Of a DNA stretch of 64,000 nt, positions 38,811 to 57,491 are shown in pieces. Each line of letters opens with the position of its first letter. Within the stretch, counting starts at the first letter, position 1. A program made the position numbers and the translations under genes. Location: NCBI GenBank assembly GCA_019930625.1, contig CP082844.1, forward strand, positions 2,108,001 to 2,172,000. The letters run 5' to 3'. The DNA is from Nocardia asteroides (GTDB lineage Bacteria > Actinomycetota > Actinomycetes > Mycobacteriales > Mycobacteriaceae). A model generated the notes under the pieces. The model ran no database searches and had not been told where the DNA came from. It saw only the letters and a list, made by a program, of their open reading frames with translations.

Positions 38811-39044
38811 ATGAGCGTCAGGCCCGGAGGCGGTAGTTCACGTGACCACGGAGGGCCCGCGCATGCCGAGGAGGACACAGCATGAGCGTCAGGCCCGGAG
38901 GCGGTAGTTCACGTCACCACGGAGGGCCCGCGCATGCCGAGGAAGACACAGCATGAGCGTCAGGCCCGGAGGCGGTAGTTCACGTGACCACGGAGGGCCC
39001 GCGCATGCCGAGGAAGACCCAGCATGAGCGTCAGGCCCGGAGGA
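38811..39044 (+). repeat. 71-bp tandem repeat, MIRU-like, with ATGA-coupled mini-ORFs
   Basis: Three full 71-bp units (38811, 38882, 38953) and a fourth partial one from 39024. Each unit starts with ATGAGCGTCAGGCCCGGAGG and ends with a GAGGA(A/G)GAC ribosome-site-like stretch. Each complete unit encodes a 24-residue peptide (MSVRPGGGSS... to ...EDTA or EDPA), and its TGA overlaps the ATG of the next unit as ATGA. The last, partial unit runs in frame into the DUF4282 gene. Units differ by only 1-3 bases. The sequence is clearly related to the element at 57376-57491. This arrangement is that of mycobacterial interspersed repetitive units. Confidence 0.85.
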
Positions 39045-39056
39045 GGAGGACACGAG

Positions 39057-39635
39057 ATGAGTGACGAATCCGACGGCATCGGTGCGCCCGTCGAGGGCCA
39101 GGCGGCGGACGCGGCGGAGTTCGAGGCCGAATCGCGCTGGCTCGCGTGGAAGGAGTCGGCGGCCGAGCGGCGGTCGGGGGCCGCCGCCGACGAAGAGGAG
39201 CACCCCGAGCCGTTCCGCAGCCCGCGCGCGTTCGTGCAGTGGAGCTCCGCGGCCGCGCGCGCCTTGGTGGACGTGCAGTTCCACCGCCCGGCGACCCGCA
39301 CGCTCTTGCCGCTGGCCTACATCCTGGGGCTGGTGTTCGCCTTCGCCGTCCCCATCACGCTGACGGTTTCGGCGTGGCGGGTGTCCGCGGTGCTCGGCGT
39401 GCTCGCGGCGGTGCTCGGCGTGCCGCTCGGCCTGACCATCGCGGCCGCCGTCCGGCTGATGCTCGAGTTCCTGGTGAACGCCTCCCGCCTGGCGACCAGG
39501 GTGGAGCACATCAGCGAGCTGGCCGATGATCTGTTCCAGGCGTTGTCGGACGTGGCCGAGCCGGTCAACCAGTTGTCCGAAGACGTTCGGGCGGTGCAGT
39601 TCTGGCGCTTCCGCAAGCGAAACCCGCGCAGGTAG
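39057..39635 (+). CDS. DUF4282 membrane protein
   Basis: A 192-residue protein. An acidic N-terminal part is followed by a DUF4282-like domain: ARALVDVQFHRPATRTLLPL starts it, then two TM helices (LAYILGLVFAFAVPITLTV and VLGVLAAVLGVPLGLTIAAA) and a C-terminal helical region EHISELADDLFQALSDVAEP. Function unknown. ATG 39057 has AGGAGGAGGA 7 bases upstream; the ATG of the last repeat unit at 39024 is in frame and would add MSVRPGGGGHE. The 71-bp repeat array lies directly in front, so initiation may depend on it. Confidence 0.78.
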   Translation: MSDESDGIGAPVEGQAADAAEFEAESRWLAWKESAAERRSGAAADEEEHPEPFRSPRAFVQWSSAAARALVDVQFHRPATRTLLPLAYILGLVFAFAVPITLTVSAWRVSAVLGVLAAVLGVPLGLTIAAAVRLMLEFLVNASRLATRVEHISELADDLFQALSDVAEPVNQLSEDVRAVQFWRFRKRNPRR

Positions 39636-39844
39636 GGGACGAAAACGCGCCGTCCGGAAGTGTTTTGACTCGCTGGAGACAACGACCTAGCTGAGACACG
39701 CACAGTGACCAGCGTGAGTTTCACTGTCGACAATGCTGTTCGGATACCCGGCACATCCACCGTGGGTGTCCGGGAGGGTGGGTCGCGTCGCAGACCGGGC
39801 ATGGTTCACGGTGCGGCCGGACAAGGGCGAAACAGGGGGGAAGC

Positions 39845-40720
39845 ATGGCTTTACCGCAAGGGACGACCGGTTCGACCATGCCGAGGCGGCAGCTCGGCAG
39901 GCAACTACGCGATCTGCGCAATCGGGCCGGGATGACCACTCGGGTGGCCGCGCAGCAGCTGGAATGGTCGGAGGCGAAGATCTGGCGGATCGAGACCGGG
40001 CAGACCTCGCTGCGCGGCCTCGATGTCGAGGCGATGTGCAAGGTCTACGGCGCGCCGCCCGAACTGCTCGAACCGCTGCGCGCGTTGGCTCGCGACACGA
40101 AGGCCAAGGGATGGTGGACCTCCTTCGGCGACGTGATCCCGGAGGGCTTCGACGTCTACATCGGGCTGGAAGAGGCGGCCACCAGGCTGTTCACCTACGA
40201 GAACGAACTCGTCCCCGGCCTGCTGCAGACCGAGGGCTACACCCGCGCGGTGTTCGCGGCGGCGTATCCGGAGTTGTCCGCCGACGAGATCGACCGCAGG
40301 GTGGGGTTACGCCGGGCCCGGCAAGCACTGGTCACCCGCTCCGACGCGCCACTGCGCCTGGACGCGCTGATCGATGAGGCGGTGCTGCTACGGCGCATCG
40401 GCGACCCGGCGGTCGCCGCCGAGCAGCTCGACCACCTGCTCCGCATGGGCGAGTTGCCGAACATCCGGATCCGGCTGGTGCCGATGGACTGTGGCTATCA
40501 CCACGGCTTGACCTCAGGCCGATTCGTCTTGTTGCAGTTCCCCGGAGTGCGTTCCGGCGAGCCGCCCGAACCGCCGGTGGTGTACGTCGAGGCGTTCACC
40601 GGGCCGGTGTATGTGGACAAAGAGCCTGAGATCGCGCGTTTCCGCAGGGCATTCGCGAGTATCGAGGCGGCGGCGGTCGACGCTCGCGCGGGCATCGAGA
40701 AGGCACGCGCGTCGCTGTGA
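39845..40720 (+). CDS. XRE-family regulator with DUF5753 domain (second copy)
   Basis: A 291-residue protein. HTH segment LGRQLRDLRNRAGMTTRVAA and KIWRIETGQTSLRG, then DUF5753 with WWTSFGDVIPEGFDVYIGLE, LVPGLLQTEGYTRAVFA, LPNIRIRLVPMDCGYHHG and PPVVYVEAFTGPVYVDKEPE. Unlike the copy at 31976 it has no DUF397 gene following; the convergent MarR gene comes next. A G-rich site GGGGGGAA precedes the ATG. Targets unknown. Confidence 0.88.
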   Translation: MALPQGTTGSTMPRRQLGRQLRDLRNRAGMTTRVAAQQLEWSEAKIWRIETGQTSLRGLDVEAMCKVYGAPPELLEPLRALARDTKAKGWWTSFGDVIPEGFDVYIGLEEAATRLFTYENELVPGLLQTEGYTRAVFAAAYPELSADEIDRRVGLRRARQALVTRSDAPLRLDALIDEAVLLRRIGDPAVAAEQLDHLLRMGELPNIRIRLVPMDCGYHHGLTSGRFVLLQFPGVRSGEPPEPPVVYVEAFTGPVYVDKEPEIARFRRAFASIEAAAVDARAGIEKARASL

Positions 40721-40743
40721 ACCGGACCTCTATCCGGCGCTGA

Positions 40744-41172
40744 TCAGCACTTCGGCGGGCCCGGCAGATCCCAGGTATCGCTCAGCACGGCCCGGTGGGT
40801 GGGCAGGGCCTGTTCATAGACCTCGCGGCCCTTCTCGGTGAGGCAGACGAACACGGCGCGACGGTCTTGCGCGCACATGGTGCGCCGGACGAGACCGTCG
40901 CGCTCCAATCGGGCGACGGCCCGCGACAGCGCGCTCTGGCTGAGGTGGATGTCGCCGGCCAGATCGCTCATCCGGTAATCGCCGCAGTTCGCGTCGACCA
41001 GCCGATCCAGAGTCTCGAATTCGCTCAGCCCGATGGAATGACCGTTCTGCAGCGCCTTCTCGAGCGCGCAACTCACCGCCGCGTGCCGGTCGAGCAGCTC
41101 CCGCCACTCCCCAACCAGCCCGGTGGGCGCGGCAGCGCCCCGGGCCGTTTTCACGGTGGTCGGCTTCGACAT
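40744..41172 (-). CDS. MarR-family transcriptional regulator
   Basis: A 142-residue winged-helix protein: LSEFETLDRLVDANCGDYRM, then DLAGDIHLSQSALSRAVARL as the recognition helix and DGLVRRTMCAQDRRAVFVCL with LTEKGREVYEQALPTH as wing and dimer helix. Divergent from an MFS efflux gene, the common repressor-pump layout. No ribosome site; TAAGAT lies 6 bases before the ATG, so the transcript may be leaderless. Two similar palindromes lie in the 85-base intergenic region. Confidence 0.9.
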   Translation of the reverse strand: MSKPTTVKTARGAAAPTGLVGEWRELLDRHAAVSCALEKALQNGHSIGLSEFETLDRLVDANCGDYRMSDLAGDIHLSQSALSRAVARLERDGLVRRTMCAQDRRAVFVCLTEKGREVYEQALPTHRAVLSDTWDLPGPPKC

Positions 41173-41178
41173 GGCCCC

Positions 41179-41207
41179 ATCTTAGTGGGCACGCCATGTT
41201 CATGCAA
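41179..41207 (-). promoter_or_regulatory. Promoter of the marR-type gene (leaderless)
   Basis: On the minus strand TTGCAT (41207-41202), a 17-base spacer, TAAGAT (41184-41179), then 6 bases to the ATG at 41172. The -35 box is inside the palindrome at 41202-41213. Confidence 0.55.
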
Positions 41208-41213
41208 CTGCAT
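41202..41213. promoter_or_regulatory. Candidate MarR operator 1
   Basis: ATGCAACTGCAT: arms ATGCA/TGCAT around two bases. It covers the -35 box of the marR-type gene and is 30 bases, about three helical turns, from operator 2. Confidence 0.55.
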
Positions 41214-41221
41214 CTTATGTG

Positions 41222-41250
41222 TTGGCATTTAATGCGCACGCATGTAATCT
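41222..41250 (+). promoter_or_regulatory. Promoter of the MFS gene (leaderless)
   Basis: TTGGCA (41222-41227), 17-base spacer, TAATCT (41245-41250), then 7 bases to the ATG at 41258. No ribosome site is present. Operator 2 lies in the spacer. Confidence 0.6.
41232..41243. promoter_or_regulatory. Candidate MarR operator 2
   Basis: ATGCGCACGCAT: arms ATGCG/CGCAT around two bases, located between the -35 and -10 boxes of the MFS promoter, where repressor binding would block transcription. Confidence 0.55.
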
Positions 41251-41257
41251 TCCCCGC

Positions 41258-42724
41258 ATGACTTCACCGGCAACGCTCTCGGCCGCGCAGGCGACCGATC
41301 CGACCAGATGGTCAGCCCGGCTTTGGGGCATGCTGATCACGCTGTGCATCGTGCTGTTCCTCGACGGCCTCGACGTTTCGATGATCGGCGTCGCCCTGCC
41401 GTCCATCGGCGCGGAACTCGATCTGTCCACGTCCACCCTGCAATGGCTGGTCAGCGGGTACGTGCTCGGTTACGGCGGTCTGCTGCTGCTCGGCGGCCGC
41501 ACCGCCGACCTGCTCGGGCGGCGCAAGATCTTCCTGATCGCGCTCGCGGTCTTCGCGGTCGCGTCGCTGGCAGGCGGTCTGGTCAGCTCCGGCCCGCTGC
41601 TGATCCTCACCCGCTTCATCAAGGGCCTCGCCGCCGCGTTCACCGCGCCCACCGGCCTGTCCATCATCACCACCAACTTCGCCGAAGGACCGGCCAGGAA
41701 CAAGGCGCTGTCCATCTACACGGTGTTCGGCGCGGGCGGCTACTCCATGGGCCTGCTGTTCGGCGGGCTGATGACCGGCGTCGGCTGGCGCTGGACGTTC
41801 CTGCTGCCGGTGCCGATCGCGGTCGCCGCGCTGGTCGCCGCCTACGTGCTGGTGCCCAAAGACAAGCCCGCCGAGGAAGGCGGACACGACCTGCTGGGGG
41901 CGCTGCTGTCCACCGCGGCCATGCTGCTGCTTGTCTACACGGTGGTGGCCGCGCCGGAAGCCGGATGGGCGTCGGCGCGCACCATCGGCTCGTTCCTCGC
42001 GGTCGTCGCGCTCTTCGCCGGATTCGTCGCGGTGGAGAAGCGGGTGCGCTACCCGCTGGTGCGCCTCGGGATCCTGCGCAAGTCCTCGCTGGTCCGCGCC
42101 AGTCTCGCGATCGTCGCGGTGGCGGGCTCCTACTTCAGCTGGCAGTTCATCGTCACCCTCTACATGCAGGACACCCTCGGCTGGTCGCCGCTGAAGCTGG
42201 CGATGGCGCTGCTCCCGGTCGGTCTGCTGGTCGTGCTGTCGGCGTTCTTCTCCGACAAGCTCGTGGATCGTTTCGGCACCGGGCCGGTGATCGCGGTCAC
42301 CATGGTCGTGATGGCCGTCGGCTACCTGCTGTTCCTGCGGCTGGACACCGCGCCCTCCTACCTGACGATGCTGCTGCCCGCCGTGCTGCTCATCGGCATC
42401 GGCTGGGTCGGTTTCCCCGCCATCAACATCCAGGCCACCAACGGCATCGATGACGACGAGCAGGGCCTCGCGGCCGGGGTGTTGCAGACATCCATGCAGG
42501 TCGGCGCGGCCATCGTGCTGGCGGTGACCACCGCGATCATCGCCTCCGGCGCGCACGCCGACATCTCCGCCGCCGGGATGCTCGACACCTACCGCCCGGG
42601 CCTGGAGTTCGCCGCGGGCGTGTCCATCGTCGGCGCGCTCGTCGCCCTGCTCGCCTTCACGCCGCGGTCGCGCGGCCGGGAGCGGGCGGCGGAGGAGACG
42701 AAGGAGCTGGAACTCGTCAGCTGA
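41258..42724 (+). CDS. MFS transporter, drug:H+ antiporter 2 (14-TM) type
   Basis: A 488-residue major-facilitator protein with about 14 TM helices. Motifs: LDVSMIGVALPSIGAELDLS in TM1 (motif D1-like), GGRTADLLGRRKIFLIAL as motif A, and FTAPTGLSIITTNF. This is the EmrB/QacA-like export family; the substrate is unknown. The divergent MarR regulator with two operators suggests induction by its substrate. The ATG at 41258 is chosen because a -10 box TAATCT lies 7 bases upstream; an upstream in-frame ATG at 41219 would sit inside the promoter. Confidence 0.9.
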   Translation: MTSPATLSAAQATDPTRWSARLWGMLITLCIVLFLDGLDVSMIGVALPSIGAELDLSTSTLQWLVSGYVLGYGGLLLLGGRTADLLGRRKIFLIALAVFAVASLAGGLVSSGPLLILTRFIKGLAAAFTAPTGLSIITTNFAEGPARNKALSIYTVFGAGGYSMGLLFGGLMTGVGWRWTFLLPVPIAVAALVAAYVLVPKDKPAEEGGHDLLGALLSTAAMLLLVYTVVAAPEAGWASARTIGSFLAVVALFAGFVAVEKRVRYPLVRLGILRKSSLVRASLAIVAVAGSYFSWQFIVTLYMQDTLGWSPLKLAMALLPVGLLVVLSAFFSDKLVDRFGTGPVIAVTMVVMAVGYLLFLRLDTAPSYLTMLLPAVLLIGIGWVGFPAINIQATNGIDDDEQGLAAGVLQTSMQVGAAIVLAVTTAIIASGAHADISAAGMLDTYRPGLEFAAGVSIVGALVALLAFTPRSRGRERAAEETKELELVS

Positions 42725-42737
42725 CCGTCGTACCGGT

Positions 42738-42777
42738 CGCCGAGCGCCGTCACCACACCGGGTGGCGGCGCTCGGCG
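42738..42777. terminator. Hairpin terminator between MFS and rmlC genes
   Basis: Perfect 12-bp inverted repeat (CGCCGAGCGCCG at 42738-42749, complement at 42766-42777), loop extended by a CACC/GGTG pair, between convergent genes. Confidence 0.75.
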
Positions 42778-42841
42778 CTGTCTCGCAGTCGCTCTGCCGG
42801 TGCGGGTTTCGACCGGCTATGTCCGCTGTGCCGTCAGCGGC

Positions 42842-43390
42842 TCAGGAAAATGGCGGCGCGACAGTGTCTTTCGCGGAGCGGACGAAGGTGAGTTCACGGC
42901 CGTCCCGCCCCACCCGCGGCCACTCGATGCTCAGCGTGGGATCGAACGCATCGATGTCGTGGTCGAACTCGGGCTGATATTCCAGGGAGCACAGGTAGGT
43001 GACCGTCGATCCGTCTTCCAGGGACAGGATCGCGTGGCCGAGTCCTTCGGACAGGAACACCGAGCGGCGGTCGACGTCGTCGAGCAGCACGCTGTCCCAG
43101 CGCCCGTAGGTCGGCGAGCCGCGGCGCAGATCCACGACCACGTCGAGGAACGCGCCGCGCACACAGGTCACGTACTTGGCCTGACCCGGCGGGTCCTCGG
43201 TGTAGTGGATGCCGCGCAGCACCCCGGCCGCCGACACCGAACAGTTCACCTGCCGCAGGTCGAACGGCCGCCCCGTCGCCTTCTCGAACTCCGAGGCCTT
43301 GAACCCTTCGAGGAACATGCCGCGATCGTCACCGTGCTGGCGCGGAGTGATCACCCACGCGCCGGGCACCGCGAGTTCCCGGAATTCCAT
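42842..43390 (-). CDS. rmlC: dTDP-4-dehydrorhamnose 3,5-epimerase RmlC
   Basis: A 182-residue cupin epimerase, third step of dTDP-L-rhamnose synthesis; rhamnose links galactan to peptidoglycan. RmlC landmarks: LAVPGAWVITPRQHGDDRGM, LRQVNCSVSAAGVLRGIHYT with the catalytic His, then VVVDLRRGSPTYGRWDSVLL and LSEGLGHAILSLEDGSTVTY. It ends earlier than M. tuberculosis RmlC (about 20 residues shorter). ATG 43390 aligns with the mycobacterial start; GTG 43396 would overlap the rmlA stop. Directly follows rmlA. Confidence 0.93.
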   Translation of the reverse strand: MEFRELAVPGAWVITPRQHGDDRGMFLEGFKASEFEKATGRPFDLRQVNCSVSAAGVLRGIHYTEDPPGQAKYVTCVRGAFLDVVVDLRRGSPTYGRWDSVLLDDVDRRSVFLSEGLGHAILSLEDGSTVTYLCSLEYQPEFDHDIDAFDPTLSIEWPRVGRDGRELTFVRSAKDTVAPPFS

Positions 43391-43392
43391 GC

Positions 43393-44265
43393 TCACCAGT
43401 CCCGTCCGCGTTCGAGCAGATCGAGCAGGTAGCGGCCGTAACCGGAACGGACCATCGGTTCGGCGAGCCTGCACAACTGATCGTCGTCTATGAAGCCCAT
43501 CCGCCAGGCCACCTCCTCGGGCACGCCGATCTTCAGGCCCTGCCGCTCCTCGATGGTGCGCACGTAATTGGCCGCGTCGAGCAGGGAATCGAAGGTGCCG
43601 GTGTCCAGCCAGGCGGTGCCGCGGGCGAGCACGTCCACACTCAGCCGATCCTGCTCCAGGTAGGCGCGATTGATGTCGGTGATCTCGTACTCGCCCCGCG
43701 CCGACGGACGTAGCGAACGGGCGATCTCCACCACGTCGTTGTCGTAGAAGTACAGGCCGGGAATGGCGTAGTTCGACCGCGGGACCTTCGGCTTCTCTTC
43801 GATCGACACCGCGCGTCCCTCGGTGAACTCCACGACGCCGTAGGCGGTCGGGTCGGACACCCAGTAGGCGAACACCGCGCCGCCGTCGATCCCGTGGAAG
43901 CGATTGAGACTGGTGCCCAGGCCGGGGCCGTGAAAGATGTTGTCGCCGAGTACCAACGCCGCGCAATCACCGCCGATGTGGTCGGCTCCGAGGACGAAGG
44001 CCCTGGCCAGGCCGTCCGGCTCCGGCTGGATGACGTAGCTCAGCGACAGCCCGAGCTGGGCGCCGTCGCCGAGCAGCCGCCGGAACGCCGCTGCGTCCTC
44101 GGGGGTGGTGATCACCAGGATGTCCCTGATCCCCGCGAGCATCAGCGTGGAAAGGGGGTAGTAGACCATCGGTTTGTCGTAGACCGGGACCAGCTGCTTG
44201 CTCACCCCGCGCGTGATCGGGTGCAACCGGGAGCCGGTGCCGCCCGCCAAGATGATTCCGCGCAT
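43393..44265 (-). CDS. rmlA: Glucose-1-phosphate thymidylyltransferase RmlA
   Basis: A 290-residue nucleotidyltransferase that makes dTDP-glucose from glucose-1-phosphate and dTTP. The signature is intact: [20 protein letters not shown] with [20 protein letters not shown], then [30 protein letters not shown] and [16 protein letters not shown]. First gene of an rmlA-rmlC pair. rmlB lies 2.5 kb away on the other strand and rmlD is not in this window. Confidence 0.96.
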
Positions 44266-44493
44266 GCATGGAGTCTGCCAGTTTCACGGCGCCGGGATTC
44301 GGTGAGGTTCCGAGTAGTCCTCGATTCGGTCACGATCGTTTCGCTTCCGGGGGTATCGAGCGATTCTGTTGCGTAGGTCACGGTGCGCGTGGTGTTCTGA
44401 AAAGACACTGCGTGAGATGTCAGCGCCGACAGCTCGCTTGGGCGACCTCGGTCCGGTCGTGATTCGGCGCGCCAGTTGTTAGGTAGGTGCGCG

Positions 44494-45483
44494 ATGGCGA
44501 GCAGAGACGGCGAGCCCGGCGTGGTGATGAATCCAGAAGGCCCCAGCGCGCAATCGCGCTTGCTGCTGGCCGCCTGCATGGGCGTGGTGCGGCCGATGCT
44601 GCGGACGCTGCCGGTCACCAGGGCGACCATTCCGTTCGGCGCCGCCACGGTGGACGGGCTGGCGCGATTGCGTCCGCAGCCGCAGGGCATCGATCGAGAA
44701 CAGGTGACGCTGCACGGTCTGCGCTTGGAGATCCTTCGCCCGGCCGGTGCGGCGCGTGCGCTACGCCACGGCGCGGTGCTCTACATGCACGGCGGCGGCT
44801 TCGCGATCTGCAGTACCCGCAGCCACCGGCCGATCGCCGGGAGCCTGGCCCGCCGCACCGGGCTGCCGGTGATCAACGTCGAGTACCGCCAGTTGCCCGG
44901 CACGCGCATCACCCACTCGGTGCACGACTGCCTGGCCGCCTACCGCTGGCTGCTGCGCCATGGCGCGGATCCGGCGCGGATCGTCTTCGCGGGCGACTCG
45001 GCGGGCGGATACCTCACCTTCGCGACGGCGCTGCTGGCCCTGGAGTCGGGACTGCCCGCGCCGGCCGGGTTGGTCGGCCTGAGCCCGCTGCTCGACCTGG
45101 ACTACGCGGCGAAGCGGGACTACGTGAATGTTTCGCGAGACCCGTACATCCCGTTGTCGGCGTTGCAAGCGGTGGTGCGCATCGGCGCCGAGGTCGACGG
45201 GTTGCTCGATCCGAGTCTTTCGCCGGTCAACGCGACGCTGTCCGCGCTTCCGCCCGTGCTGCTGGTCGCGGCGGAGGACGAGGTGCTCCGGTTCGATTCC
45301 GAGTTGATGGCGCAGCGGCTCACCGCCGCGGGCGTGCCGAACGCGCTGGAGCTGTGGCGCGGCCAGGTCCACGCCTTCATGAGCATCGCGCCGGGCCTGC
45401 CGGAGAGCAGGGCGGCGTTGGCGCGGGTCTCGCGTTTCGTGCGGGCCCGCGTCGCGGACGACCAACAGGCACGAACGGCTTGA
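44494..45483 (+). CDS. Alpha/beta hydrolase, HSL (hormone-sensitive lipase) family
   Basis: A 329-residue esterase. Oxyanion motif HGGGF in AVLYMHGGGFAICSTRSHRP, nucleophile in GDSAGG (RIVFAGDSAGGYLTFATAL), an Asp in AAEDEVLRFDSELMAQRL and the His in WRGQVHAFMSIAP complete the triad. Members act on short- to medium-chain esters; the natural substrate is unknown. No signal peptide. ATG 44494 with AGGTAGG upstream is favoured; TTG 44476 and GTG 44521 are alternatives. Stands alone next to rmlA on the opposite strand. Confidence 0.87.
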   Translation: MASRDGEPGVVMNPEGPSAQSRLLLAACMGVVRPMLRTLPVTRATIPFGAATVDGLARLRPQPQGIDREQVTLHGLRLEILRPAGAARALRHGAVLYMHGGGFAICSTRSHRPIAGSLARRTGLPVINVEYRQLPGTRITHSVHDCLAAYRWLLRHGADPARIVFAGDSAGGYLTFATALLALESGLPAPAGLVGLSPLLDLDYAAKRDYVNVSRDPYIPLSALQAVVRIGAEVDGLLDPSLSPVNATLSALPPVLLVAAEDEVLRFDSELMAQRLTAAGVPNALELWRGQVHAFMSIAPGLPESRAALARVSRFVRARVADDQQARTA

Positions 45484-45697
45484 CCGTTCGGCCTTTCGAG
45501 GCGAGCCTCGCCCCGCATCGCGCCGGGACGGGGCTCGCGTCCTGTCCAGGGTGCGCCGTTCGGCGCGTGCGCCCAGGGCACTCTGGATTCGGATCGATGT
45601 TATCTGTTCTTGATAGTGCAGGTCAGCCCGGGGAAAATCAATAAGTTCCATTTTGTTCAGCGAGTGTTCACCTTCGGGCCAGCGATAGGAATAACGG

Positions 45698-45729
45698 AGC
45701 CCCGCCCGCGTGATAACGCGGACGGGGCT
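45698..45729. terminator. Hairpin terminator
   Basis: Inverted repeat 45698-45710 with 45717-45729, 13 pairs with one mismatch, loop TGATAA. Located downstream of the minus-strand secreted-protein gene and of the plus-strand esterase gene. Confidence 0.65.
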
Positions 45730-45767
45730 TCCGTTTTCGGATTCAGTTGTGTGCGTTCAGCCGATGC

Positions 45768-46478: not shown

Positions 46479-46653
46479 TTGTTTGGAACCTCGATGTGAA
46501 AGCGTTCGGAGGGGACTAGATGAGCAAAATCTAGACCAGCTAACGAGTGGTGAACCCGTTGTGACTATTTATTCAAATTTTGTTCACCGCCGTGACTCAC
46601 GACATGGTGGGGTCGCGGAAATGTGGGGGCTGACCGGGGATTTCCAGAAATAG

Positions 46654-47802
<1,149 letters not shown>

Positions 47803-47803
47803 A

Positions 47804-47846
47804 CGACAGTGGCGCCCCGGGGACCAGCCCCGGAGCGCCACTGTCG
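47804..47846. terminator. Hairpin terminator between rmlB and the DUF2142 gene
   Basis: Inverted repeat with an 11-bp perfect outer stem (CGACAGTGGCG at 47804-47814, complement at 47836-47846) and an inner CCCGG/CCGGG stem, between convergent genes. Confidence 0.8.
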
Positions 47847-47860
47847 AACTCTCCTGCCGC

Positions 47861-50445: not shown

Positions 50446-50580
50446 CCGGGTCAATCCTCGCGATCGGTGGTGAATGTGGGAACACGGGGAGGGTACAGGC
50501 AACTCACAGCTCGTGCGTGGCCGACCTCACCGCGCGCGGGAGCGGAATTCACCCTCGCGGGCGGTTCCCCGAGCCTGCGG

Positions 50581-50586
50581 TACCGT
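50581..50586 (+). promoter_or_regulatory. Candidate -10 box of a leaderless promoter
   Basis: TACCGT, 6 bases before GTG 50593 of the GtrA gene; no ribosome site is present. Confidence 0.4.
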
Positions 50587-50592
50587 CGGGCG

Positions 50593-51129
50593 GTGCCATC
50601 CAGTGAGTCCACCGCACCCGCGGGCGAGCCAGTCACGCAGGAGACCGCAACGGTCCTTCGCAAGGTGCTCACCGCGCTGCGCAGAGGCGGCGCTTTCCTG
50701 GTGGTCGGCGCGATCGGTTTCCTGGTCGACGCGGGCACGTACAACCTCCTGGTCTTCTGGGGTGGCGAGGGCGTGCTCTATCACTACCCACTCCCGGCCA
50801 AGATCATCGCGATCGCGGTGGCGACGGTGGTGACCTATTTCGGTAACAAGTGGTGGACCTTCGCGCACAAACAGACCGACAATCCCGGGCGCGAATACCT
50901 GTTGTACGCCGTGTTCAACGTGGTCGCGATCGGCCTGCAACTGGGCTGTCTCGGCTTCTCCCGGTACGTGCTCGACCTGTCCAGCCCGCTGTCGGACAAC
51001 ATCTCCGGTACGTTGATCGGGCAGATCGTGGCCGTGGTGTTCCGGTACTGGGCTTACGACAAGTTCGTCTTCACCGGGGCGCGCGCAGGCACGGGCAGCG
51101 CCACCGAAAACGAATCGGCGAACGTTTAG
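50593..51129 (+). CDS. GtrA-family membrane protein (second copy)
   Basis: A 178-residue protein with four TM helices: AFLVVGAIGFLVDAGTYNLL, AKIIAIAVATVVTYFGNKWW with TFAHKQTDNPG, then LLYAVFNVVAIGLQLGCLGF and VFRYWAYDKFVFTG. These are GtrA domain marks. GtrA proteins assist flipping or presentation of undecaprenyl/decaprenyl-linked sugars. Divergent from the GT2/DUF2142 pair and just upstream of glfT2. GTG 50593 follows a -10-like TACCGT. Confidence 0.87.
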   Translation: MPSSESTAPAGEPVTQETATVLRKVLTALRRGGAFLVVGAIGFLVDAGTYNLLVFWGGEGVLYHYPLPAKIIAIAVATVVTYFGNKWWTFAHKQTDNPGREYLLYAVFNVVAIGLQLGCLGFSRYVLDLSSPLSDNISGTLIGQIVAVVFRYWAYDKFVFTGARAGTGSATENESANV

Positions 51130-51263
51130 CAATTGTTCGAGCACACGTCGGCGTGGCTGTACGGCGGGCAAGCGCAGAGGGCGGTTGATATCCTCACCCC
51201 CGCCGTGAAGGCATCGAGGGGCGTGTCTGTCCCGTCCGGCACAATGAGAATTTCGAGGATTTC

Positions 51264-53177
51264 ATGGATCAGTCGGCTATCGAGGCCGTTACCGAAACAA
51301 ACGATCGCTCGACGGCCGCTGAGGCGCCTGCCGCGCTGCGGGCCGACCATCGGGCGCCGGACCGGCTAGTACTGCAGCGCGGTATCTTCACCGGTCCGTC
51401 GGCGCGAGTGAGCGACGAGCTGTACGCCGTCGTGAAGGGCGGCGCGCACCGGGAACGCCTCACACTGAGATTGGACAAGGGCGCGACCGCGCACACGAAC
51501 ACCTACTTCGGCCGGTTCGCCGCCAGCTACTGGCAGCGCTGGACCACGGTCACCGAAGTACGGGTCACCATGGTGCTCGACGTGGTCGCCAAGGCGAAGA
51601 TCCGCCTGGTGGCCTCCGACATCGCGGGCCACCGCAGAATCATCGACAACGCCCGGGTCGACGCGAGCGGCTCGGTGACGCTGAGCGCCCCGCTCGACCA
51701 GTACGTCGACGGCGGCGCGCTGTGGCTGGAGTTCGACGCCATCGGCGGCGCGCTCGGCATCGCGGAGCTGACCTGGACCGCCGTCGCGCCGGAGCGCGTT
51801 CGCCCGGTCGCCATCGCGATCTGCACCTTCAACCGCGCGGCGGACTGCGCCGAGACGGTCGCGGCGCTCGCCTCCGACCCGACCGTGCTCGCCGCGATCG
51901 ACGCGGTGTACGTGGTCGACCAAGGCACCGATCTGGTCGAGAACCGGCCGCGCTACCAGGAGGTCGTGCCGGTCTTCGAAGGAAAGCTGCGCTACCTGCG
52001 CCAGCCGAACCTCGGCGGGGCGGGCGGCTTCACCCGCGGGCTCTACGAGGTGTCCGCGGTCAACGAGCACGCCGACGTCATCCTGATGGACGACGACATC
52101 CTGTGCGAGCCGGAGACGGTGCTGCGCCTCAACGCGTTCGCCAACCTGACGGTCGAGCCGACGCTGGTCGGCGCGCAGATGCTGTTCCTGCTCAACCCCG
52201 ACTACCTCAACGTCGGCGCGGAGGAGGTGCACCTGCACCGGCTGCGGCACGGCCAGAAGGTGCCGAAGGCGCTGCGCAACACGAGCATGCTGAAGAAGAA
52301 CCAGGAACGCCGCGTGGACGCTGGCTACAACGCGTGGTGGACCTGCCTCATCCCGGCCGAGGTGGTCGCGAAGATCGGCCTGCCGATCCCGATCTTCTTC
52401 CAGTGGGACGACGTGGAGTACGGCGTCCGGGCGCGCGAGCACGGTTTCGTCACCGTCACGCTGCCCAACGCCGCGGTCTGGCACGCGGACTTCTACTGGA
52501 AGGATTACGACGACTGGGCGCGCTACTTCAGCACGCGCAACTCGCTGATCGTCGGTTCCATGCACGCGGAACTGGATGGGAAGGAGATCAGCCGAAAGCT
52601 GTTCCGGGAGATGTCCGAGCAGCTGGTGGCGATGCAGTACGGATTGGTGCACACCACTTTGCAGGGCATCGAGGACTTCCTCGAGGGCCCGAAGGTGTTG
52701 CGTGACGGCGGTATCGAAGCGCTGGCCGCCGCGCGCACCAGCCGGGCCGACTACCCCGAGACGATCAAGCACCCCGCTGCGACGCCGCCGGTCCGCTCGG
52801 CGGACATCACCCTGCGTCGAGCCGGTGGGGAACCCAGCCGCGCGCTGCTGGTGCTGATCAAGCGCGCGATCAACCAGTGGCTGGGCCGCACCCAGCACGG
52901 CATCATCGGCGTCACCAGGGAAGACGCCTACTGGTGGCATGTCTCGCTGTTCGACCACGTGGTGGTCACCGACGCCTCGCAGTCCGGCGTCCGGGTGCGC
53001 AGGCGCGACAAGGCCCGCGCGATGCGGTTGCTGCGCCGCATGGTGCGCGTGCTGCGTCGTTTGCGCCGGGAACTGCCCGCTTTGCAGGCCCAGTACCGCG
53101 CCGCCATGCCGGAGCTCACCAGCCGGGAGAACTGGGAGCGGTTGTACGGCATCGAGAATTCCCGACGCGACAGCTGA
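51264..53177 (+). CDS. glfT2: Galactofuranosyltransferase GlfT2
   Basis: A 637-residue bifunctional UDP-galactofuranosyltransferase that polymerises galactan with alternating beta-1,5 and beta-1,6 links. N-terminal beta-barrel with FAASYWQRWTTVTEVRV; GT-A core with AIAICTFNRAADCAETVAAL, QPNLGGAGGFTRGLYEV, the metal-binding DDD at residues 276-278 (ILMDDDILCEP), the WDD motif in IFFQWDDVEYGVRAREHG, and the acceptor His in AAVWHADFYWKDYDDW. The length equals that of Rv3808c. GAGGATTT precedes the ATG. Nothing is missing. Confidence 0.96.
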   Translation: MDQSAIEAVTETNDRSTAAEAPAALRADHRAPDRLVLQRGIFTGPSARVSDELYAVVKGGAHRERLTLRLDKGATAHTNTYFGRFAASYWQRWTTVTEVRVTMVLDVVAKAKIRLVASDIAGHRRIIDNARVDASGSVTLSAPLDQYVDGGALWLEFDAIGGALGIAELTWTAVAPERVRPVAIAICTFNRAADCAETVAALASDPTVLAAIDAVYVVDQGTDLVENRPRYQEVVPVFEGKLRYLRQPNLGGAGGFTRGLYEVSAVNEHADVILMDDDILCEPETVLRLNAFANLTVEPTLVGAQMLFLLNPDYLNVGAEEVHLHRLRHGQKVPKALRNTSMLKKNQERRVDAGYNAWWTCLIPAEVVAKIGLPIPIFFQWDDVEYGVRAREHGFVTVTLPNAAVWHADFYWKDYDDWARYFSTRNSLIVGSMHAELDGKEISRKLFREMSEQLVAMQYGLVHTTLQGIEDFLEGPKVLRDGGIEALAAARTSRADYPETIKHPAATPPVRSADITLRRAGGEPSRALLVLIKRAINQWLGRTQHGIIGVTREDAYWWHVSLFDHVVVTDASQSGVRVRRRDKARAMRLLRRMVRVLRRLRRELPALQAQYRAAMPELTSRENWERLYGIENSRRDS

Positions 53178-53190
53178 TCGGCGTTGGTAC

Positions 53191-53222
53191 GTGGGGGACG
53201 GGCTGACTTGCCCGTTCCCCAC
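53191..53222 (+). terminator. Hairpin terminator after glfT2
   Basis: 13-bp stem with one G-U pair, 53191-53203 against 53210-53222, six-base loop TGACTT, 14 bases past the glfT2 stop. Confidence 0.75.
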
Positions 53223-53271
53223 TGCCGGCCGCCGTCGCTGCACCTGACTGCGGCCTGGAGGCGGTCAGAGG

Positions 53272-54123
53272 TCAGAGAAAGAGGTCGGTGGTGAGTTCGC
53301 CGTCGCCCGGGGTGACGCGGTACCTGTCCAGGTCGGTGATGCCGTGGGCGGCCAGGACCTCGTCATCGATATAGAAGTTGCCGCTGTTCTCCTTGCCGGG
53401 CGAGGTGAGCACCAGGTAGGCGGCGTCGGCGTAGATGTCTGGGGTGCGCGAGGTGGAGATCATCTCCTCGCCGCCGAGCAGGTTCTTCACCGCGGCGGTC
53501 GCGATGGTGGTGCGCGGCCACAGCGAGTTGACGCCGATGCCGTCGTTCTTCAGTTCCTCGGCCAGCCCCAGCGTGGTCAATGACATTCCGTACTTGGCGA
53601 TGGTGTAACCCAGCGCCATGCCCGCCCACTTCGGGTCCAGGTTCAGCGGCGGGGACAGGGTGAGAATGTGCGGGTTGCGCCCCGCCTTCGCGGATTCGCG
53701 CAGATGCGGGATGCTCAGCTTGGACAGCAGGAAGCTGCCCCGGCAGTTGATGTCCTGCATCAAGTCGTACTTCTTCATCGGCAGCGCGTCCGTGGGGGAC
53801 AAGTCGATCGCGGAGGCGTTGTTCACCACGATGTCGATGCCGCCGAAGCGCTCCACCGTCTGCCGGACCGCCTCGGCCACCGACTCGTCGATCCGGACGT
53901 CACCCACGAACGGCAGTACCTGCCCGCCCGCCGCCTCGAGCTCCGCGGCGGCGGTGTGGATGGTGCCGGGAAGCTTGGGATGCGGCTGATCGGTCTTCGC
54001 GATCAGCGTGATGTCGGCGCCGTCGGCCGCGGCCCGCTTGGCGATCTCCAGCCCGATGCCGCGGCTGCCGCCGGACATGATCATCGTCCGGCCCGCTAGC
54101 GGCTTGGATCCCGGTTCCGTCAT
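53272..54123 (-). CDS. SDR-family oxidoreductase, HSDL2-like
   Basis: A 283-residue SDR resembling the HSDL2-type (hydroxysteroid dehydrogenase-like 2) group: AGRTMIMSGGSRGIGLEIAK, then LIAKTDQPHPKLPGTIHTAA, IVVNNASAIDLSPTDALPMK, HILTLSPPLNLDPKW and GYTIAKYGMSL with Tyr and Lys. AAGGAG lies before ATG 54123. A near-perfect 28-bp dyad at 54198-54225 lies upstream and could be an operator. Substrate unknown; the group is linked to fatty acid or steroid metabolism only by annotation. Confidence 0.87.
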   Translation of the reverse strand: MTEPGSKPLAGRTMIMSGGSRGIGLEIAKRAAADGADITLIAKTDQPHPKLPGTIHTAAAELEAAGGQVLPFVGDVRIDESVAEAVRQTVERFGGIDIVVNNASAIDLSPTDALPMKKYDLMQDINCRGSFLLSKLSIPHLRESAKAGRNPHILTLSPPLNLDPKWAGMALGYTIAKYGMSLTTLGLAEELKNDGIGVNSLWPRTTIATAAVKNLLGGEEMISTSRTPDIYADAAYLVLTSPGKENSGNFYIDDEVLAAHGITDLDRYRVTPGDGELTTDLFL

Positions 54124-54197
54124 GTGACCTGCTCCTTCGTTTCCGCCGCGGGCAGCAGCCAGCGGCTGTACGCGCTTGCAGACCAATCGTAAACCAC

Positions 54198-54225
54198 CAC
54201 CCTATGCAACCAGTTGCATAGGGTG
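54198..54225. promoter_or_regulatory. 13-bp-arm palindrome upstream of the SDR gene
   Basis: Perfect arms CACCCTATGCAAC (54198-54210) and its complement (54213-54225) around CA. It is 75 bases upstream of the SDR ATG, with TACGAT, a -10-like box, at 54191-54186 on the minus strand. Operator for a TetR- or MarR-type repressor encoded elsewhere is the likely role. Confidence 0.5.
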
Positions 54226-54232
54226 TGCGAAG

Positions 54233-54260
54233 AGAGGGCACCGGCGCGCCGGTGCCCTCT
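54233..54260. terminator. 28-bp perfect palindrome, terminator-like
   Basis: Perfect inverted repeat of two 14-bp arms (first arm AGAGGGCACCGGCG) with no loop spacer, just past the stop of the minus-strand P/Q-rich gene. GC-rich and typical for terminators in this window. Confidence 0.6.
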
Positions 54261-54267
54261 CCGCGAT

Positions 54268-54963
54268 TCAGATCGTGGCGATGATCAGGATGTTCAGCAG
54301 GAACATCACTGCGACCAATGCCCAGACGATGTACAGGAACAACATGCCCGGCGCCTTCTGCGGAACCGGTCCGATCGCGCCGTTGAGGAAGATCACCACC
54401 GGCGCTTTGTAGTAGAACCGCGTGGCCTGTCCCTCAGCGATCGGCACGGTCACATTCGCCGGACCCATGTCGAACAACCACGGGGTGGTGACCCGGACGT
54501 GATACTGGCCGGGCCCGACCGGGATGTGATTCGCGCCCCAGCGGGTATTGGGCACCCGCTGGCCGTTGACCAGGATCTTCGGCTTGGTCAGCGCGAGCAG
54601 GAACGTCCAGATCGAGTACGAGGCATCGATGGTGATGCCGGGCGGGTCGGCGGGCTGGCCATAGCCCTGCTGCGGAGCGAACTGCTGGGGCTGGCCGTAC
54701 GGTTGCGGCTGCCCGAACTGCTGGGGCTGACCGTATGGCTGCGGCTGGCCGTATTGCGGCGCGGGTTGTCCGTACGGCGGCTGCCCCAGCTGGGGTTGAG
54801 CGAGATGCGGTTGGCTCGGATGCTGCCCCGCGGGCGGCCCGTACTGCGCGGGCGCCTGCGGAGGCGGGTACTGGCCGACTGCCGGCTGCTGACCGAACGC
54901 CGGCTGCCCAGGCCATTGGCCGGGCTGCTGGCCGTGTGGCGGGTACCCGCCGGGTTGACTCAT
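54268..54963 (-). CDS. Proline/glutamine-rich membrane protein
   Basis: A 231-residue protein. The first ~105 residues are low complexity with Pro, Gln, Gly and Tyr, including tandem [14 protein letters not shown] repeats. A beta-rich middle follows ([20 protein letters not shown], then [20 protein letters not shown]), and one C-terminal TM helix ([20 protein letters not shown]). Mycobacteriales have many such P/Q-rich membrane proteins of unknown role; the N-terminal part is probably a flexible cytoplasmic region. rsgA lies 56 bases upstream on the same strand and may share a transcript. Confidence 0.75.
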
Positions 54964-55019
54964 CTATCCCTCCCAGATAGCGAACGATGCGAGGGGCACC
55001 CTACCGTGCCCCCGCTCGA

Positions 55020-56066
55020 TCAGCGTCGCGAGTTCTTCTCCCGGAACATCTTGCGGTGCTGCTTGGTGATGCCCCGCCAAGCCCGATCGCGTTCGGCTTG
55101 CAGCCGCTTGTCGGTGCGCGCCTGCATCCACTCGTTCTCCCGCGCCAGCTTGTTGTAACTGTCTAGCCTGCGCTGGGTGAGCTCGCCGTTGTCGATCGCC
55201 TCCCGCACCGCGCACCCCGGTTCGCCGCGGTGTGCGCAATCGCCGAAACGGCACTGAGCGGCAAGGGATTCGATGTCGCTGAAGGTCTTCTCGATCCCTT
55301 CGGTCGCGTCCCATAATCCGATACCGCGCAGCCCAGGGGTATCGATCAGCGTGCCGCCGCCGGGAAGGGGGCGCAACTCCCGGTGCACCGTGGTGTGCCT
55401 GCCCTTCTTGTCCGCGTCGCGGACCGCGTTGGTGGCGAAGATCTCCGCGCCGAGCAGTGCGTTGGCGAGGGTCGACTTCCCAGCACCGGAGGGCCCGATC
55501 AAGGCGACGGTGCCCCCGAGCATCGCGGTGAGCACATCGAGGCCCGCGCCGGTGTTCGCGCTCACCTCGAGCACGGCCGCGCCGGGCGCGACGGCGCGCA
55601 CCTCCTCGACCGGGACGTCATAGGCCGCGTCGGCTTTGGTGAGCACCACGATCGGCTGGGCATCGCTTTCCCAGACCACCGCGAGCATGCGTTCGATGCG
55701 GCCGAGGTCCACGTCGCCGTCGGCGGCGGTGCAGATCAGAACAGTGTCGACATTGGCGGCGAGCACCTGGCCCTGCGACCGGCCGGATACCGACGACCGC
55801 ACGATCGCCGACCGGCGCGGGAGCAACCCGCGTACCGCCGAGGTGGCGTCGACGGTCACCCAGTCTCCGGTGCACAGCCCGCTGACCTCGGAATCCGGGC
55901 GCGGGCAGCGGGCGCGAGCGAGCCCGGTCGGCGTGGCCACGTCGCATTCACTGCGATCCATGCGGATCACTCGCGCGGGCACACAGCCTTCCTCGATCAT
56001 CGAGGCGTACCGGGCGGAAACGGCTTCGGTCCAGCCGTAAGGGACGAGAAGGTCGTGGTCGACCAT
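55020..56066 (-). CDS. rsgA: Ribosome small subunit-dependent GTPase RsgA
   Basis: A 348-residue circularly permuted GTPase that acts late in 30S maturation. OB-fold N-terminus, then the permuted motifs: G4 PIVVLTKADAA, G1 VALIGPSGAGKSTLANALLG, G2/G3 TLIDTPGLRGIGLWD, and the C-terminal zinc-knuckle CRFGDCAHRGEPGCAV. Length and order are typical. ATG 56066 is used; an in-frame ATG at 56148 would add an N-terminal stretch without family support. The 280 bases upstream to the glfT1 stop hold no gene that I can see. Confidence 0.93.
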   Translation of the reverse strand: MVDHDLLVPYGWTEAVSARYASMIEEGCVPARVIRMDRSECDVATPTGLARARCPRPDSEVSGLCTGDWVTVDATSAVRGLLPRRSAIVRSSVSGRSQGQVLAANVDTVLICTAADGDVDLGRIERMLAVVWESDAQPIVVLTKADAAYDVPVEEVRAVAPGAAVLEVSANTGAGLDVLTAMLGGTVALIGPSGAGKSTLANALLGAEIFATNAVRDADKKGRHTTVHRELRPLPGGGTLIDTPGLRGIGLWDATEGIEKTFSDIESLAAQCRFGDCAHRGEPGCAVREAIDNGELTQRRLDSYNKLARENEWMQARTDKRLQAERDRAWRGITKQHRKMFREKNSRR

Positions 56067-56346
56067 GATGGAAGGAATCCTTCGTCGGGCGCTGAACCCG
56101 ACGAGGGGTTCAGCGAGCGGAGAATGAGCAGGAGTTTCGTGTGGCGGCATGACCGAGGTCAGCTCGCCAAGACACGACAAACCGAACGTTCCTCGACACG
56201 GTCCACACCTCCTTACTTCTCTCGCAGTGCACCAACTCTGGCACTCGCCCGCGCTCCGCACAACCGAATTTCCGTTCCATCTATCGGAACGTGCGCCTCG
56301 CACCCCGCTGAGCCGATGGCAGGGACCGAGTGTGCGAGTCCACCGA

Positions 56347-57375
56347 TCAGTCGGGCTTGCCGAACTGCTCGTGGCGACCGAGGGAGCGGAGGTGGAACCA
56401 TTCCTTCAGGCCGGCCGGGTCGCGACGGGTGACCAGGAAGAACCAGGAGAAACGGATCCATTCCTGCGGCAGCAGTTTTCGCATGCCGGGCTGGGACATC
56501 AGGTAACCGCGGTTGCGGTAGGTGAAGTAGCGCTTCACCGGATCGTCGGGGTACTGCGTATGCATCCGGCCGCCGAGAATCGGCTTGAACTCGGCCACGC
56601 CGTTGGGATGCAGATACGCCGTCTGCAGGCAGGTGCCGAACGGCAGCCCGGAACGCACCAGCCTGCGATGCACCTCCACCTCGTCGCCGCGCACGAACAG
56701 GCGCAGATCCGGCACGCCGATCACGTCGACCGCCTGCGCGGAGATGAGCGCGCCGTTGAACAGCGAGGCTATGCCGGGCAGGAAATCCTCGTCGCCGAGT
56801 TCCGACCGCAGCCGTCGCCAGACCACGCCGCGGCGCAGCGGGAAGGCGAGGCGGTCGGGTTCATCGATATCGCAGACCACGGGTGAGACCTCGACCAGGC
56901 CGTGCCGGTTCGCGCAGTCCAACAGGACCGACAGCACGTCGGGACCTTCGGGCCTGCCGTCGTCGTCGGCCAGCCACACCCAGTCCGCGCCCATGCTCAG
57001 CGCGTGCAGCATGCCGAGCGCGAATCCGCCCGCACCGCCGAGGTTGTGCGCCGAGCCCAGGTAGGTCGATTCCACCGGCTGGTCGCGCACCAGGTCGGCG
57101 ACCTCCGGCTCGTTGCCGTTGTCGACCACGATCAGGTGATCCACCGGCCGGGACTGGGACGCGACGACCTTCAGCGACTCGGCGAGCAGTTCGCGGCGCT
57201 TGTGCGTGACGACGACGGCCACGATGCGCTGCTGCGAGTCCGGCTTCGGCGTCGCGGATTCCGTCGGGAGCGGGGCGGTGAGGTCGTCGAGTTCGACGCC
57301 CTCCTCCGGCGCGGAGCCGATCCGGGCTTGCGCCCCTTCGTCGATCGGGGTGTCCTGCCCGGTCGGCTCGCTCAT
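56347..57375 (-). CDS. glfT1: Galactofuranosyltransferase GlfT1
   Basis: A 342-residue GT2 enzyme that adds the first galactofuranose residues on the rhamnosyl linker before GlfT2 extends galactan. A ~50-residue acidic N-terminal extension is followed by VAVVVTHKRRELLAESLKVV, NLGGAGGFALGMLHALSMGA, WLADDDGRPEGPDVLSVLL with the metal-binding DDD, and FVRGDEVEVHRRLVRSGLPF. Context is that of Rv3782, beside Wzt and Wzm homologues (Rv3781, Rv3783). Its ATG overlaps the stop of a repeat-encoded mini-ORF rather than that of wzt. Start choice follows that overlap. Confidence 0.92.
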   Translation of the reverse strand: MSEPTGQDTPIDEGAQARIGSAPEEGVELDDLTAPLPTESATPKPDSQQRIVAVVVTHKRRELLAESLKVVASQSRPVDHLIVVDNGNEPEVADLVRDQPVESTYLGSAHNLGGAGGFALGMLHALSMGADWVWLADDDGRPEGPDVLSVLLDCANRHGLVEVSPVVCDIDEPDRLAFPLRRGVVWRRLRSELGDEDFLPGIASLFNGALISAQAVDVIGVPDLRLFVRGDEVEVHRRLVRSGLPFGTCLQTAYLHPNGVAEFKPILGGRMHTQYPDDPVKRYFTYRNRGYLMSQPGMRKLLPQEWIRFSWFFLVTRRDPAGLKEWFHLRSLGRHEQFGKPD

Positions 57376-57491
57376 GCTGTCGCCTTTCGCTGCCGCCTCC
57401 GGGCCTGACCACTCATGCTGTGCCTGTTGTCGGCATGAGTGGGGCCCTGCGTGGTCACACTTCGCTGCCGCCTCCGGGCCTGACCACTCAT
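57372..57491 (-). CDS. Repeat-encoded 39-residue mini-ORF between wzt and glfT1
   Basis: The reading frame starts MSGQARRRQRSVTTQG, and its second part repeats MSGQARRRQRKATA; it is very basic. The ATG (57491-57489) overlaps the wzt stop as ATGA, and its TGA (57374-57372) overlaps the glfT1 ATG as ATGA. It consists almost entirely of the interspersed repeat. It may serve only to pass ribosomes between wzt and glfT1, but as an ORF with coupled ends it is likely translated. Confidence 0.55.
   Translation of the reverse strand: MSGQARRRQRSVTTQGPTHADNRHSMSGQARRRQRKATA
57376..57491 (-). repeat. MIRU-like interspersed repeat, 75-bp unit plus partial copy
   Basis: On the minus strand a 75-bp unit (57491-57417) begins with ATGAGTGGTCAGGCCCGGAG, followed by a second, partial copy (57416-57376). 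It shares ordered blocks with the 71-bp array at 38811-39044: the ATGAG start, TCAGGCCCGGAGGCGG, TGACCACG, AGGGCCC, CATGCCGA and a CACAGC end. Unlike that array the unit length is a multiple of three, so the two copies are read as one ORF. Confidence 0.8.

Follow-up and report, generated by a model that had tools for sequence, protein, structure and literature searches.

We analysed a window of 64,000 nucleotides (nt) from the genome of Nocardia asteroides (contig CP082844.1, positions 2,108,001 to 2,172,000), which carries two arrays of a short repeat, a candidate mobile element, at 38811-39056 on the forward strand (locus 1) and at 57376-57491 on the reverse strand (locus 2; Table 1). The original prediction, made from the letters of this window, was that the two loci share ordered sequence blocks while preceding unrelated genes on opposite strands. 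This was confirmed: both arrays belong to one repeat family with exact ATGA overlaps, and the downstream genes, for a DUF4282 protein and a GT-2 glycosyltransferase, are unrelated and lie on opposite strands. At locus 1 the units are 97-98% identical to the first unit over a 96-nt stretch, and each 71-bp unit encodes MSVRPGGGSSR(D/H)HGGPAHAEED(T/P)A*, with the TGA overlapping the following ATG. At locus 2 the TGA of the ATPase gene (57488-57490) overlaps the ATG of the unit and the TGA of the array frame (57372-57374) overlaps the ATG of the glycosyltransferase gene. We take the ATPase to be Wzt/RfbE-like, and the glycosyltransferase is presumably, from synteny, GlfT1-like. The 16-mer TCAGGCCCGGAGGCGG occurs in the window five times exactly and once with one mismatch, always within loci 1 and 2; two more sites with three mismatches equal the chance expectation. 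A search of the window against Rfam 15 at the gathering score gave no match.

The repeat is dispersed over the whole 7.4-Mb genome and is not limited to these two loci, as had also been proposed. With at most one mismatch allowed, TCAGGCCCGGAGGCGG occurs 31 times in the genome and a reversed control pattern not once. A covariance model built from 16 units of this genome (R1) gave 73 matches at E ≤ 1 (44 clusters), 67 of them at E ≤ 0.01 (39 clusters). R1 also matched all 118 sampled genomes of the genus at E ≤ 0.01 (the source genome included), with 1 to at least 41 matches each, numbers that are floors since at most 41 candidates were scored per genome. Beyond the genus, an order-level sample of 147 other genomes, among them 17 listed members of other genera within the same family, gave no match at E ≤ 0.001, and in a class-wide sample one of 194 other genomes (G386) had a single weak match of 40.8 bits; these two samples have genomes in common and were both scored under stricter filters than the genus sample. 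A gapped core-pattern scan of named genomes listed 80 loci, of 120 stretches, and 79 of them were from Nocardia. The remaining one, L148 (NZ_MUKA01000341.1), lies on a 5.9-kb contig labelled Streptomyces africanus that shares 86.7% identity over 2.7 kb with a locus of Nocardia rhamnosiphila, and it is probably due to contamination of the deposited assembly, or to transfer. As sampled, the family therefore appears restricted to Nocardia, the genus being read from the names of the carriers in the pattern scan; the predicted occurrence outside Mycobacterium holds for this genus and extends beyond it only by the two single hits, L148 and the weak G386. We found no description of such a Nocardia repeat in the open-access literature (titles and abstract openings; most subscription journals lay outside its reach), in agreement with the original prediction.

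The position of the copies relative to genes depends on their strength. Gene calls came from a simple codon-usage caller, which missed some starts, including that at locus 1. Among the 24 strong clusters (at least 55 bits), 16 adjoin the end or start of a called gene on the same strand. The 11 clusters that have a gene abutting upstream all place its stop codon at the same point, within the NTGA of the unit and ending 3 nt into the array. Junctions with strong copies, for which the protein families were checked, are ClpP1/ClpP2, acyl-CoA dehydrogenase/enoyl-CoA hydratase, cytochrome c/QcrA and a pair of PAPS-reductase-type genes (cysH/cysD); the carbamoyltransferase/dihydroorotase pair (pyrB/pyrC) carries the repeat interrupted by insertion sequence (IS) copies. 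The other eight strong clusters comprise one antisense within a non-ribosomal peptide synthetase (NRPS) gene, two beside IS copies, four elsewhere (L230, L239, L248 and L253) and locus 1 of the window, which was counted as off-junction because the caller missed its start-codon site owing to the truncated unit. In contrast, none of the 20 weaker clusters (below 55 bits) adjoins a junction, so that the expected enrichment at start and stop codons applies to the strong copies and fails for the weak ones. Many of the weaker clusters form, as judged by eye, a second subfamily (subfamily II) with a GCGGYG..CRCCGC stem that is intergenic or overlaps reading frames. Weak intergenic copies are found within groES-groEL, rplK-rplA and atpA-atpG (families checked), and the weaker copies L233, L236, L228, L227 and L235 lie between core operon genes or near rpsL. 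Weak copies in core operons might influence how mRNA is processed or terminated.

The insertion target can be read from orthologous sites that lack the repeat. We joined the flanks of nine junctions, searched them in 14 further genomes of the genus and aligned the regions. In one of these genomes, G005, the repeat was absent from five of the nine junctions (clpP, wzt/glfT1, qcr, cys and an ABC-permease), all of them ATGA junctions, with 90-93% identity over four spanning matches and 80% over the fifth, and it was present at fadE, abc, fprA and lipA. In a second junction set G005 was also empty at L225, L230 and L259. The empty site of locus 2 in G005 reads GGC-ATGAGT-GAGCCG, with the glycosyltransferase gene directly after the ATPase gene; where the repeat is present, ATGAG flanks it on either side. 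At locus 1, genome G007 lacks the repeat and has a plain start codon, its ATGAGT adjoining the GGC junction directly, with no overlapping upstream gene. Among 63 arm-bearing targets, 44 are ATGA, 12 GTGA and 7 CTGA. The repeat thus appears to insert at NTGA, mostly at ATGA start/stop overlaps, leaving NTGA on both sides. The earlier proposal that the ATGA start junction itself is the target is correct for most sites and too narrow for the rest, as GTGA and CTGA are used as well and no upstream gene overlaps the start codon that forms the site at locus 1. The targets are also biased further upstream: GGC precedes NTGA in 25 of 56 A/GTGA insertions. The corresponding counts are 3 of 46 for overlaps free of the element (P = 1.3e-5) and 46 of 391 for plain TGA stops (P = 2.7e-8).

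We collected 180 arrays (46 from the N. asteroides genome, 85 from named genomes and 49 others). Orthologous insertions among them were filtered out only where flank strings were identical, and the loci are therefore partly non-independent. The unit is 71-78 bp long in 127 of 130 arrays; there are one to four model-scored units per array, and five consecutive units occur at one place. Tandem unit numbers vary between related species. A unit consists of NTGA, GCGG, TCAGGCCCGGAGGCGG...ACCACGNAGGGCC, CCGC, the reverse complement of nnnNTGA, GAnnnGGACACAGC and again NTGA. The majority-type unit folds with a z-score of -3.4 as RNA and -4.5 as DNA; five other segments gave -1.0 to -3.5 as RNA and two others -3.2 and -4.0 as DNA. 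Among 116 distinct units taken from the named loci, each of the seven outer-stem pairs varies on both sides. Double changes over the whole structure numbered 137 compared to 33 in shuffles (reached in 0 of 500) and the covariation score was 0.218 compared to at most 0.063 with the partners slid, in an alignment that was fitted to the model and so favours the structure.

The outer stem involves the host. At the NTGA junctions for which empty sites were compared, the outer left arm derives from the host. Pairing of the right arm with the target amounts to 0.82-1.0 over 11 bp, falls to 0.67 at bp 12 and reaches the shuffled level at bp 13; this profile was anchored on 121 of 127 first units and its shuffle held no register, which overstates the contrast, and we therefore rely on a register-controlled permutation. 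It used the three host positions upstream of NTGA, which lie outside the pairs modelled in R1, in 41 and 37 first units of two arm-length classes after deduplication (three units with 7-nt arms were left out). The right arm pairs with these positions at 0.95/0.90/0.90 in one class (n = 41; permuted 0.91/0.82/0.61) and at 0.86/1.00/0.81 in the other (n = 37; permuted 0.71/0.76/0.42), and the three-position sum was reached in 0 of 2000 permutations in each class. In internal units, which follow the repeat's own tail, pairing at the third position was only 0.26 (n = 23) and 0.23 (n = 13), and the sum was reached by 133 and 156 of 2000 permutations, respectively. The same can be seen by type of site: where GGC precedes NTGA, 44 of 48 arms have the GGC form, and at non-GGC sites the arm matches all three nt in 27 of 46 first units. 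When only cores within three edits of the consensus are considered, 18 of 28 non-GGC sites have a matching arm and 5 of 28 the GGC form. A mere shared GGC codon as the source of the match was rejected by the register-controlled permutation. On this statistical evidence, the right arm of the outer stem (~12 bp) is complementary to the site of insertion, three host nt upstream of NTGA included.

Most arrays keep a reading frame open through the junction. We examined 57 distinct arrays that fill a junction and are followed by a downstream frame open for 60 codons; dropped from the 180 were 62 without an A/GTGA start, 37 without ATG/GTGA directly after, 21 without the 60-codon open frame and 3 duplicates. 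Of these 57 arrays, 33 are in the coupling frame, ending in the downstream ATGA, 22 are in the fusion frame (20 open throughout into the downstream gene, 2 with an internal stop) and 2 are in the third frame (P = 4e-8 for at most two of 57); coupled and openly fused arrays together make up 53 of the 57. Arms of 7, 8 and 9 nt set the core in three different frames in 9, 79 and 59 of 196 distinct units, respectively, the other 49 having no A/GTGA arm, and 141 of the 147 units with such an arm are open through core and arm. The ORF peptide as a conserved product was rejected, as the same core is read in three frames; openness and phase are conserved, not the peptide.

Table 1. Repeat units and adjoining genes in the window.
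Feature	Position	Strand	Remark
Locus 1, repeat unit 1, 71 bp	38811..38881	+	24-codon ORF 38811-38885, TGA overlaps next ATG
Locus 1, repeat unit 2, 71 bp	38882..38952	+	24-codon ORF 38882-38956
Locus 1, repeat unit 3, 71 bp	38953..39023	+	24-codon ORF 38953-39027
Locus 1, truncated unit 4 (arm and first part of core)	39024..39056	+	In frame with downstream gene
DUF4282 protein gene, downstream of locus 1	39057..39635	+	
Locus 2, repeat unit 1, 75 bp, arms ATGAGTGG / CCACTCAT	57417..57491	-	
Locus 2, truncated repeat unit 2, 41 bp	57376..57416	-	
Locus 2, 39-codon array ORF	57372..57491	-	Overlaps upstream stop (ATGA) and downstream start (ATGA)
ABC-transporter ATPase gene, upstream of locus 2	57488..58345	-	Stop is TGA of first unit
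GT-2 glycosyltransferase gene, downstream of locus 2	56347..57375	-	
Third, divergent copy, subfamily II type, 72-bp in-frame segment	27286..27357	+	N-terminal part of GtrA-family protein ORF; 48 bits

The last unit of an array is often truncated, with the arm and the beginning of the core retained, as in both window arrays (39024-39056 and 57376-57416) and in L232, L128 and L137. Separate from the repeat family, an 18/36-bp tandem repeat lies at 54653-54753 of the window and possibly encodes a low-complexity segment.

We propose that the repeat is a non-autonomous mobile element of ~75 bp that works like the mycobacterial interspersed repetitive units (MIRUs), a reading to which we assign a probability of roughly 0.7. 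The element would insert at NTGA, above all at ATGA start/stop overlaps in operons, after which NTGA would flank it on both sides. The unit would then open with a start codon, stay open and either end in a stop that overlaps the next start or fuse in frame, so that the downstream gene could keep its supply of ribosomes; this architecture is what we observe, and from it we infer that the units are translated and couple the downstream gene. As a transcript or as a single strand, the element could form a hairpin in which the core is fixed and the outer stem measures ~12 bp. The match between arm and target may be set at insertion, by guide pairing or by target copying, and tandem arrays may arise later through duplication between the NTGA repeats. 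More specifically, the element could be a miniature hairpin with a target-copied or reprogrammable guide arm that also installs a self-contained translational-coupling cassette at the junction, a fuller version to which we give slightly better than an even chance; for a target-copied or guide-pairing arm, the two taken together, the odds may be put a shade higher.

Several observations weigh against this proposal. No transposase or other enzyme for the repeat was identified in our searches. The unit of window locus 1 folds with a z-score of -1.5, no better than many shuffles. The GGC-type arm is kept in 8 of the 46 first units at non-GGC sites (two of them now IS-flanked), and 11 of the 46 match neither fully nor in the GGC form. 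The left arm of subfamily II does not derive from the host, being absent from the empty L248 sites of G009 and G013. Of 12 rows with a CTGA target, 8 have CTGA after the array (two of these 8 duplicate another row); in at least four of those eight it opens a truncated unit, and at L094, L165, L211 and L217 the array is not followed by CTGA, so that this pattern falls short of proving a clean target duplication. At window locus 1, G007 has no repeat and G005 retains a truncated copy, so that empty sites arise by loss as well as by gain; the notion that locus 1 is a very young insertion, suggested by the empty site in G007, was dropped in view of this remnant. Finally, a purine-rich ribosome-binding motif (simple pattern) is present at 61 of 180 array ends.

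How could the arm come to match its target? One explanation is that the element carries a guide arm that pairs with the target and so chooses it, as IS110 bridge RNAs and the guide sequences of IS200/IS605 do. Guide pairing would explain the GGC bias of the targets, which is directed to the canonical arm (25/56 compared to 3/46 and 46/391). However, near-identical cores carry very diverse arms, which does not fit unless guides drift fast, and a protein with a preference for GGC-NTGAG would account for the bias equally well. There is, moreover, no match to the Y1 transposase (Y1_Tnp, PF01797) of REP-associated tyrosine transposases (RAYTs; REP, repetitive extragenic palindromic) in the N. asteroides genome, and one is present in 6 of 30 genomes of the genus; with no match in the repeat's own genome, Y1/RAYT was rejected as the driver. 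We regard a carried, target-choosing guide as possible and rather doubtful. Target copying, the other route in our proposal, would explain why near-identical cores have very different arms.

A second explanation places the match after insertion. A hairpin over the upstream stop could be useful in the mRNA, for coupling or RNA stability, and selection would adjust the right arm to the final codons of each host gene. The covariation of the stem could be a product of such selection on an RNA stem, and the stem of subfamily II varies even though both of its arms appear to come with the element. In contrast, internal units are not adjusted at position -3 (0.26 and 0.23 compared to 0.90 and 0.81 in first units), although these could be recent duplicates. 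A matching arm is already present in units with near-consensus cores (18/28), and the match stops sharply at bp 12. Selection after insertion is, in our estimate, an unlikely source of the match.

It is very improbable that the repeats are not mobile at all and are conserved cis elements (attenuators, terminators or coupling hairpins) that evolved in place or spread by recombination or gene conversion: the weak intergenic copies in the conserved operons groES-groEL, rplK-rplA and atpA-atpG would suit this, as would the variation of tandem unit number between relatives, which slippage would give, but presence and absence at orthologous junctions with their empty sites, one core at dozens of unrelated junctions, and an antisense, in-frame copy within an NRPS gene disfavour it.

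The IS element seen in some arrays offers a last candidate. It is an IS110-family element (PF01548, PF02371) of ~1.46 kb with six copies in the N. asteroides genome, of which the pairs compared among five are 99.6-100% identical. Five copies sit at the ATGAG of repeat units (L246, L252, L255, L257 and L329), which would suggest that the element moves the repeats, but the sixth lies at a plain ATGAG...TGAGCG site without a repeat, and at E ≤ 1e-80, a threshold that covers close relatives only, the element was found in none of 58 other genomes of the genus, all of which carry the repeat. At the similarity tested we reject it as the driver and give this idea hardly any credence; the element looks like a visitor that uses the repeat as its target. 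Two papers describe IS110-family elements that use REP sequences as targets (PMC11208160; PMC1525189). These insertions provide a natural case for reading the target of a bridge/seek RNA. At the fadE junction of a relative, ATGAG is immediately preceded by another segment of repeat-like character, GAGCGCAGCGAGCGAA...AGCGAGGCGCAGTC (L264 271-286, L169 85-100), and a segment similar to it by eye is present in L316 (G005). The pattern occurs in 2 of 326 loci, with no occurrence in the window, and may represent a second junction-inserting family.

The likeness to MIRUs (senX3-regX3 type) claimed by the original prediction is supported in architecture. Reportedly, Supply proposed in 1997 that MIRUs transpose into DTGA sites; how they spread is, to our knowledge, still an open question, and we know of no described MIRU hairpin arm that matches its target. 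In both systems short tandem units occur at many loci (71-78 bp and 39 clusters at E ≤ 0.01 in Nocardia), ORF ends overlap their neighbours (ATGA, -4 nt; 33/57 Nocardia arrays end in the downstream ATGA) and insertion sites are of the TGA type, the Nocardia targets being broader in that CTGA is used too. A 2025 review (PMC12548453) describes MIRUs as apparently mobile elements that enter start codons, where their internal ORF is coupled with a spacing of -4 nt and the insertion presumably does little harm. A 2014 paper (PMC4213456) gives units of 77 and 53 bp and places MIRUs only in M. leprae and the tuberculosis complex, two slow-growing mycobacterial groups. R1 had no match at E ≤ 0.001 in the 147 other genomes of the order sample; judged without an aligned MIRU sequence, this is MIRU logic in a new genus with no detected sequence relationship.

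Other small elements share single features with the Nocardia repeat. REP sequences and bacterial interspersed mosaic elements (BIMEs), with their RAYTs, are likewise small hairpin repeats of mobile origin with many copies (in part from PMC2817692). Unlike these, the strong Nocardia copies are mostly at start/stop junctions, the outer stem varies by locus, and the distribution of Y1 (PF01797) is as given above, with no match in the N. asteroides genome and presence in 6/30 genus genomes. Pairing between element and target would resemble the guides of IS200/IS605 and IS110, but we found no encoded guide-protein pair with the Nocardia repeat, and its arm lies inside a 75-bp non-autonomous unit. 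Enterobacterial RU repeats with ORFs and Rickettsia palindromic elements are similar in that small repeats are tolerated in reading frames. Neither of the latter two is, as far as we know, tied to NTGA junctions with -4 coupling.

For annotation, leaders derived from the repeat precede the starts of clpP2, cysD, qcrA and the GlfT1-like gene in the N. asteroides genome, or these genes may have N-terminal extensions, and arrays with a species-variable number of units are candidate variable-number tandem-repeat (VNTR) markers. A genus-wide family, often with dozens of copies and with orthologous empty sites, makes MIRU-type spread testable by comparison. The target-complementary arm is a clue to mechanism and suggests an unrecognised guide-directed or target-copying insertion. 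If this is true, a 75-bp non-autonomous element would be capable of programmable or self-adapting insertion at translation junctions.

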